A stretch of 61,918 nucleotides of DNA, taken from assembly GCA_030706145.1 (NCBI GenBank), contig JAUZPB010000014.1:1-61918 (forward strand), written 5' to 3'. The stretch is from Bacteroidota bacterium. GTDB taxonomy: Bacteria > Bacteroidota > Ignavibacteria > Ignavibacteriales > SURF-24. Numbering within the stretch: the first letter of the stretch is position 1; the number at the start of each line of letters is the position of its first letter. Below, in pieces: positions 54,182 through 54,943 of the stretch. Under the pieces are notes generated by a model. That model saw only the letters and a list, made by a program, of their open reading frames with translations. It was not told the origin of the DNA and made no database searches. A program made the position numbers and the translations under genes.

Positions 54182-54237
54182 TCTGGTTATTATTTTTGTT
54201 TAATTTCGAAAAAGAGTGTGATGATCCTTATAAAATG

Positions 54238-54273
54238 AAAAAGCCCTTCTTAGTGAACTAAGAAGGGCTTTTT
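54238..54273 (-). terminator. attenuator terminator before aroF
   Basis: On the minus strand, AAAAAGCCCTTCTTAGT (54273-54257) pairs with ACTAAGAAGGGCTTTTT (54254-54238): a 17-bp perfect stem with a tight TC loop. The distal arm supplies the U-tract. It lies downstream of the aromatic leader ORF and ~175 bp before the aroF start, on the aroF-coding strand, so it would stop transcription before aroF. Its symmetry also allows termination on the plus strand, but no plus-strand gene ends here. Confidence 0.85.
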
Positions 54274-54310
54274 CAATGTTAATTTATTGCTCTACTTTAA
54301 TTCACTAAGA
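54248..54310 (-). promoter_or_regulatory. antiterminator pairing segments of the aroF attenuator
   Basis: The minus-strand segment TCTTAGTGAA (54310-54301), within the last codons of the leader ORF, is an exact 10-nt complement of TTCACTAAGA (54257-54248), which is the terminator loop plus the beginning of its distal arm. Their pairing excludes the terminator. The same upstream segment can also pair imperfectly with TTTACT-T-GGTCC inside the leader ORF, giving the 1:2 arrangement of trp/phe-type attenuators. Confidence 0.75.
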
Positions 54311-54392
54311 TCCAGGGGCAGATATAAAATCGGCTAAATCCATAAAAGGACCAAGTAAAGTTAAAGTAATATGTGCTATTCATTGTTTTCAT
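54297..54392 (-). CDS. aromatic-rich leader peptide of aroF (attenuator peptide)
   Basis: A 31-codon minus-strand ORF beginning at the ATG at 54392. It reads MKTMNSTYYFNFTWSF for the first 16 residues and YGFSRFYICPWILVN for the last 15. Eleven of 31 residues are aromatic (4 Tyr, 5 Phe, 2 Trp), far above chance, and they cluster at positions 8-27. It lies directly between a promoter-like element and an intrinsic terminator upstream of DAHP synthase. The predicted transcript start (~54400) leaves a very short 5' UTR and no Shine-Dalgarno; an internal ATG (codon 4) is an alternative start. Ribosome stalling on these codons would sense charged tRNA for Phe, Tyr or Trp. Confidence 0.75.
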   Translation of the reverse strand: MKTMNSTYYFNFTWSFYGFSRFYICPWILVN

Positions 54393-54406
54393 ATTTATAA
54401 TGTATG

Positions 54407-54436
54407 AATATATTAAAATTTTAATTGCTTTGTCAA
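54407..54436 (-). promoter_or_regulatory. candidate promoter of the aroF leader transcript
   Basis: On the minus strand, TTGACA (54436-54431), an 18-bp spacer and TATATT (54412-54407). The predicted start near 54400 lies just before the leader ORF. Confidence 0.6.
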
Positions 54437-54571
54437 GCTCATTTGAAAATAAAATGATAAAAATTTACTATTTTATTGATCCATTTTGATGTTAAATTCG
54501 GGTAGTACTAGTAGAAGAGGGGAAAAAGTATTATTTTAAAGGTGTAATTTCCACAATTGATGAAAGAAAAG

Positions 54572-54943
54572 ATGAGAGAAATGTTCAAATCCAAAATACA
54601 CCGTGCTACGGTTACTATGAGCGAGCTTTATTATGAAGGAAGTATCACTATAGACAAAGACCTTCTTGAGGCGGCTGATATTTTGGAATATGAGAAAGTA
54701 CAGGTAGTTAATGTAAACAATGGTGCAAGGTTTGAGACCTATACACTAAATGGGGAACCAGGCAGCGGAATTATATGTCTGAACGGACCAGCTGCAAGAC
54801 TTGGAGCCGTTGGTGATGAAGTTATAATTATTACTTATGCCAGAATGACCGACGAGGAAGCAAGAAAGCACAAACCGACAATAGTGCTTGTAGATAAAGA
54901 AAATAAAGTAAAAAAAGTAAGTCCTGAAGCTGTAGAAGCATAA
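54572..54943 (+). CDS. panD: aspartate 1-decarboxylase
   Basis: 123 residues from the ATG at 54572. The family start M[14 protein letters not shown] fits this ATG; ATG 54560 and TTG 54557 are alternatives, none with a strong ribosome site. Core: [11 protein letters not shown], the self-cleavage site YYEGS-ITID (Gly23-Ser24, giving the pyruvoyl cofactor on the serine), [16 protein letters not shown] and [20 protein letters not shown]. It makes beta-alanine for pantothenate and CoA synthesis. It is divergent from aroF, with the attenuator region between them. AT-rich stems (TTTTTCGAA/TTCGAAAAA, 54948-54970) after the stop may end transcription. Confidence 0.93.

Follow-up and report, generated by a model that had tools for sequence, protein, structure and literature searches.

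We present evidence that aroF in a Bacteroidota bacterium of the order Ignavibacteriales, encoded on the minus strand of the window (the entire 61,918-nucleotide stretch of DNA analyzed here, from the genome designated G000), very probably lies behind a ribosome-mediated transcription attenuator. This would sense charged tRNA-Phe and tRNA-Tyr, and tRNA-Trp via one codon, and would have arisen by duplication of the trp leader, being retuned after aroF left the trp operon. With rather less assurance, we also lean towards a broader proposal, namely that the attenuator was copied in its entirety from the trp operon to the relocated aroF, with codon substitution alone changing its specificity from Trp to Phe/Tyr while the promoter, the pairing logic, and the terminator were kept; that it is part of a broad, undescribed reliance of the Ignavibacteriales on leader-peptide attenuation (the trp operon, trpB2, pheA, and leaders with Met/Cys codons at metY, cysH, and cysK); and that its antiterminator reaches from the region of the leader stop codon into the loop and 3' arm of the terminator.

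A promoter, an aromatic-rich leader ORF, an intrinsic terminator, and aroF succeed one another on the minus strand (Table 1), which is the arrangement characteristic of ribosome-mediated attenuators, and the leader codons match the end products (Phe, Tyr, and Trp) of the pathway to which the DAHP synthase encoded by aroF belongs. The first-pass annotation, made from the sequence without database searches, had proposed the promoter, the 31-codon ORF with its 11 aromatic residues, and the start and product of aroF, all of which were recovered in our analysis; the DAHP synthase assignment is supported by Pfam (PF00793, 4.5e-82, and PF18152) and by NCBIfam (NF006421 and TIGR01361, over cut-off). 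Its 17-bp terminator at 54273-54238 is also present, but as an 18-bp stem extending over 54275-54236. The TTGACA/TATATT promoter is the top-scoring promoter-like site within 52-56 kb of the window, and we infer from it a transcript start at ~54400, with a predicted 5' UTR of ~7-8 nt before the leader ATG that has no Shine-Dalgarno sequence. The 11 aromatic codons comprise five for Phe, four for Tyr, and two for Trp, the control codons being Y8, Y9, F10, F12, W14, F16, Y17, F19, F22, and Y23; the binomial probability of at least 11 aromatics in 31 codons is 3e-4 to 3e-3, making the composition by itself mildly unusual. As the neighboring panD is divergent from aroF, the terminator hairpin serves no upstream gene and can act only on transcripts begun between panD and aroF.

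Table 1. Features of the aroF upstream region and related leader loci; positions are those of the window unless a locus is named.
Feature	Position or locus	Strand	Basis or remark
Promoter: -35 TTGACA (54436-54431), 18-nt spacer, -10 TATATT (54412-54407)	54407-54436	minus	consensus match 11/12
Leader ORF, 31 codons, MKTMNSTYYFNFTWSFYGFSRFYICPWILVN	54297-54392	minus	ORF read from sequence
Segment 1, containing early control codons; partner of segment 2 in the ribosome-free leader	54348-54368	minus	leader-alone fold
Segment 2, ORF end, stop codon, and 4 nt past it	54293-54313	minus	alternative partners: segment 1 or terminator
Intrinsic terminator, 18-bp stem, 4-nt loop TTCA, T-rich tail	54236-54275	minus	5' arm = segment 3, 3' arm = segment 4
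aroF, DAHP synthase, PF00793 (B. subtilis-type) class, N-terminal ferredoxin-like domain, 341 aa	53036-54061	minus	Pfam, NCBIfam
panD, neighbor, divergent from aroF	54557-54943	plus	
Leaders of trpB2-like genes	L228 = G000:C79:33816-33966; L229, L230, L234, L243	L228 minus	
Candidate Met/Cys leaders	L233, L235, L237, L238, L239, L240, L245, L231, L242, L247		

The leader and terminator together fold at -47.1 kcal/mol (z -5.7 against shuffles), and the leader folded alone pairs TACTTTAACTTTACTTGGTCC of segment 1 with GGATCTTAGTGAATTAAAGTA of segment 2. Within segment 2 lies TCTTAGTGAA (54310-54301; henceforth X), which, as noted at first pass, matches TTCACTAAGA (54257-54248) as an exact complement; the latter covers the terminator loop and the beginning of its 3' arm. 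The match comprises 10 exact nucleotides plus GCCC:GGGC, and the duplex has p=0.010 with dinucleotide shuffles as the control. Growing transcripts were folded with the ribosome stalled, at the stop codon, or absent, followed by a codon-by-codon stall map. In this folding model, when the ribosome is stalled, segment 2 pairs with the 5' arm (~9 pairs) and with the loop and 3' arm (~10 pairs) in one hairpin, and the terminator fails to nucleate. With the ribosome at the stop codon, the terminator nucleates once 6 nt of the 3' arm have emerged, in agreement with the earlier proposal that a ribosome in this position would cover X, and in the ribosome-free state segments 1 and 2 pair with each other and the terminator is formed by 9 nt of the 3' arm. 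The antiterminator does exclude the terminator, as had been proposed, but it takes in more than the loop and distal arm, extending over the 5' arm and the loop and on into the beginning of the 3' arm. Pairing of X with the 5' arm was considered as the main antiterminator and rejected, its stand-alone duplex being weak (Fisher p 0.014 versus 1e-20 for X with the loop and 3' arm); in the folding, both pairings arise together as one hairpin.

The stall map shows the terminator apex to be absent for stalls from Y8 to Y23, formed by 8 nt of the 3' arm for stalls from M1 to N5, and formed for stalls from W27 through the stop codon. The effective range, codons 8-23, takes in 10 of the 11 aromatic codons; hence, the proposal that a stall at the aromatic codons blocks the terminator holds in the model for all of them except W27. 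Only 2 of 1000 dinucleotide shuffles of the region from the Y23 footprint to the terminator mimicked this stall-dependent block. After the full 3' arm has emerged, the terminator is favored at equilibrium over the alternative fold in every ribosome state; therefore, antitermination must be kinetic, as in other attenuators. Thus, as computed, the protector, antiterminator, and terminator pairings are mutually exclusive and switched by the position of the ribosome.

We posit the following mechanism. RNA polymerase would start at ~54400, and a ribosome would load on the almost leaderless ORF. A shortage of Phe, Tyr, or Trp would stall the ribosome at codons 8-23, where it covers segment 1, whereupon the free segment 2 would form a long hairpin with the emerging terminator (its 5' arm, its loop, and the start of its 3' arm), allowing the polymerase to enter aroF. 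When the aromatics are plentiful, a ribosome at the stop codon would cover segment 2 and the terminator would form; in the absence of translation, segments 1 and 2 would pair and the terminator would again form. In evolutionary terms, aroF would have departed from the trp operon, and a copy of the trp leader would have gained Phe/Tyr codons and lost the tandem Trp codons.

The trp operons of the Ignavibacteriales display the same architecture. A leader ORF of 20-32 codons is found upstream of 43 of the 44 trpE genes checked, with tandem Trp codons in 41/43 and a T-Y motif in 28/43, and a leader together with a detected terminator, typically CCCTTCTCAGT..ACTGGGAAGGG, is found at at least 42 of the 44. 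A search of 59 genomes for the terminator motif recovered it at 27 trpE sites, at the aroF of the window, and in no other place. Across the operons inspected (G000:C223:64500-76000 = L149; L039-L068 and L150-L166), a Trp-rich leader, often of the form TYY...WWW, is near-universal before trpE along with a terminator. A TTGA[CT]-spacer-TAnnTT promoter with a spacer of 16-18 nt precedes 37 of the 43 trp leaders. The median distance from the -10 box to the ATG in these trp leaders is 13 nt, and a Shine-Dalgarno-like 4-mer is present in none of the 44 leaders examined; hence, translation of the trp and aroF leaders probably starts on nearly leaderless RNA. In the folding model, 33 of 39 trp leaders have the terminator unformed with the ribosome at the Trp codons and formed with it at the stop codon. 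The trp leader of G000 itself (L050) has a mismatch in the helix between leader end and terminator, and its switch is weaker in the model than that of the aroF copy.

In these homologous trp leaders, rather than at aroF itself, the pairing of the leader end with the terminator is conserved and covarying. Own pairs of leader end and terminator outscore swapped pairs (mean 18.4 versus 14.8, z 8.7, 0/20,000 permutations), and the helix between the leader end and the 3' arm shows 19 alignment cells with changes on both sides, against a shuffled mean of 4.4 (0/500 shuffles), related genomes being counted as independent in both tests. The helix signal collapses on sliding by 1-3 columns, a control that retains the relatedness, and the terminator stem covaries likewise. 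Examples of such pairs are CCCGGTGAAT with ATTCACCGGG, TCTCAGTGATA with TATCACTGAGA, CCAAGTGA with TCACTTGG, and, at aroF, TCTTAGTGAA with TTCACTAAGA. The trp/pheA-type logic invoked in the first-pass annotation is thus borne out by three mutually exclusive structures and by a covarying homologue at trpE across the order. These observations bear on a rival account, in which a constitutive or factor-controlled terminator that lowers aroF transcription stands by chance behind an aromatic ORF, with no sensing of amino acids by the ribosome. Such a short ORF is indeed only mildly improbable in AT-rich DNA (3e-3 to 3e-4), and the arrangement occurs at aroF in a single genome. Nevertheless, the homology to an order-wide trp leader (WW in 41/43), the covarying antiterminator, the rarity of the stall switch among shuffles, and the placement of 10 of the 11 aromatic codons in the permissive range make this account improbable.

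The provenance of the attenuator is suggested by its resemblance to the trp leaders. From promoter to terminator, the aroF element is 69% identical to the trp leader of G000 and about equally so to those of G003 and G004, two genomes of the same family. The two leader peptides of G000, MKTMNSTYYFNFTWSFYGFSRFYICPWILVN (aroF) and MKIENSTYSLNLTLSFWGNWWPITNSGALVN (trp), are of equal length and share the LVN end. When 25 trp leaders, but not the aroF element, were used to build a covariance model, the model recovered that element over its full length (1-153) with 94.2 bits (E 3.6e-12), and among the 164 genomes of the order only G000 has two strong matches (C223, trp, and C46, aroF). The aroF leader lacks WW and is placed upstream of aroF instead of trpE; judged by these comparisons, it is a paralogue with changed specificity, and not an orthologue, of the trp leaders. 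As the trp leaders of all three genomes (G000, G003, and G004) show the same identity to it, ~0.69, the duplication is suggested to be as old as the split of their genera.

The genomic position of aroF is consistent with a relocation. Of the 79 genomes that have an orthologue, 73 place aroF in the trp operon immediately after trpF; it is detached in three (G000, G003, and G004), and contig ends leave the other three undecided (counts made by reading tables). The trp operon of G000 is trpEGDCFBA, with no aroF inside. A search of GTDB contigs for closer aroF homologues yielded only two Ignavibacteria loci (75-76%), both with aroF after trpF. The detached aroF genes of G003 and G004 have neither leader nor terminator upstream, and the attenuator element at aroF is restricted to G000 among the genomes examined. 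Thus, the anticipated conservation of the attenuator at aroF in relatives was not found, the gene being either inside the trp operon or detached without a leader. The copy may have been made as aroF moved and then been lost in G003 and G004, or it may have been made later. Two further terminators of G000 resembling that of aroF (C43:4807 and C135:726) were set aside, as they lie beside ATP-synthase-region or unrelated genes with no leader seen. An aromatic leader was not found upstream of the second DAHP synthase gene of G000 (C335), and none was seen upstream of its pheA. In G007, G020, G025, and others, the DAHP synthase matches share a 670-740 aa frame with prephenate dehydratase, likely a fusion with PheA; in the family of the window genome, unlike in these many relatives, PheA stands as a protein of its own, a possible reason for the need for Phe/Tyr control of aroF in that family.

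One might see in the aroF element a decaying relic of the duplicated trp leader that has lost any useful response, given that it is a diverged copy with ~69% identity to the trp leaders of the family, and that the two sister genomes with a detached aroF have no leader. We regard this as about as improbable as a chance ORF: the predicted switch is sharper than that of the trp leader of G000, X matches the terminator exactly over 10 nt plus GCCC:GGGC, the replacement of Trp by Phe/Tyr codons has kept the frame open, and the promoter and T tail are intact. Least probable of all is a hairpin acting via a protein or ligand (TRAP-like or as a riboswitch) instead of a translating ribosome, a mode of control known for aromatic genes in other phyla, since no Rfam family reaches its gathering score and what the 43 trp leaders conserve is an ORF bearing control codons, along with hairpins that exclude each other, rather than an aptamer. 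The Rfam search, which included Trp_leader and all other families, covered the window and the trp and trpB2 leader loci, with only sub-threshold chance matches being recovered. A functional, ribosome-mediated attenuator remains our preferred reading of the aroF upstream region.

The classical attenuators of the E. coli trp and pheA genes are the standard for such systems. A 2004 study by Vitreschak et al., whose title names proteobacteria, is said to mention Bacteroidetes/Chlorobi too in its abstract. In the literature searched, we found no description of leader-peptide attenuation for Ignavibacteria or Ignavibacteriales, and the first-pass annotation was likewise not aware of one for this lineage. 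From Corynebacterium, a DAHP synthase gene with a Phe/Tyr leader has been described (PMC11802643, PMC4046766). C. glutamicum aroR-aroF has a Phe-Tyr-Phe leader before the DAHP synthase gene, with ribosome stalling under Phe limitation inducing the operon (PMC4046766; Neshat et al. 2014 via PMC11802643), and Tyr limitation is without effect (PMC11802643). Both systems thus place Phe and Tyr leader codons before a DAHP synthase gene, but the control motif in the actinobacterium is a single Phe-Tyr-Phe, whereas here ten Phe/Tyr/Trp codons are spread over the leader and Tyr is predicted to count; the window element derives from the Ignavibacteriales trp leader, while C. glutamicum belongs to a different phylum. 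E. coli trpL/pheL, as outlined in PMC11802643, likewise have a 1:2 protector, an antiterminator, and a 3:4 terminator, with ribosome position deciding between them. In contrast to these, the present antiterminator continues past the terminator loop into the 3' arm and involves the stop codon as well as the last leader codons, and there is neither a Shine-Dalgarno sequence nor a match to Rfam Trp_leader. The Ignavibacteriales trp leader resembles the aroF leader in promoter spacing, leader length, terminator sequence, the leader-end motif CT(C/T)AGTGA, and pairing scheme, but has tandem Trp codons and controls trpEGDCF(aroF)BA, whereas the aroF leader has dispersed Phe/Tyr codons and controls aroF alone. 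In a related branch of the phylum, transcript data for Flavobacterium psychrophilum were described as 'strong clues' for leader-peptide attenuation before amino-acid operons; the passages found name neither aroF nor trp among these Bacteroidetes candidates and do not analyze the mechanism (PMC9723704). The leader peptides known to a 2010 survey were confined to Proteobacteria and Actinobacteria, with Firmicutes newly added (PMC2965389). Thus, the mechanism is known and the function has precedent, but its occurrence in this lineage appears to be new, as does a leader that was duplicated and re-specified.

Weaker matches of the trp-leader model led to further pairs of leader and terminator in the order, the downstream genes being named from sequence by eye and not by profile search. 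Trp leaders, e.g. MKKQINILNKVNCTWRWWWNNYVSLS, with a terminator AGCCGTG..CACGGCTTTTT, precede a trpB2-like gene in G000, G003, G055, G057, and G058. Leaders rich in Cys and internal Met, e.g. MKNKIVNIKKELNHKAMCCCCMMMCRSSRKDTA, occur with terminators before genes resembling those for O-acetylhomoserine sulfhydrylase, PAPS reductase, and cysK, and are candidate Met/Cys attenuators. Independent Phe/Tyr leaders with terminators precede pheA (prephenate dehydratase) at L269 (G014) and L264 (G019), namely MKQNYKQARYYFYFYFYFFSSPGGYCLF and MTKNFSTYSPFFYFGYFYFIYPKKGTCMVLR, and a thrA-like gene in another family of the phylum has a Thr/Ile leader, MNFIITTTTISTTTTISSCRKVCL, with a terminator (L290, G463:C1:209345-209476). 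Taken at the level of sequence, this suggests that leader-peptide attenuation is a common and main mode of amino-acid control in the Ignavibacteriales.

Our findings extend classical ribosome-mediated attenuation to an order for which no description was found in the literature searched. They also provide a case of a complete attenuator that would have been copied to a new gene, with the sensed amino acids swapped by codon replacement and the RNA logic kept. Attenuation in the Ignavibacteriales is testable in the cultured members of the order, and may be used to predict operon function in the uncultured ones.
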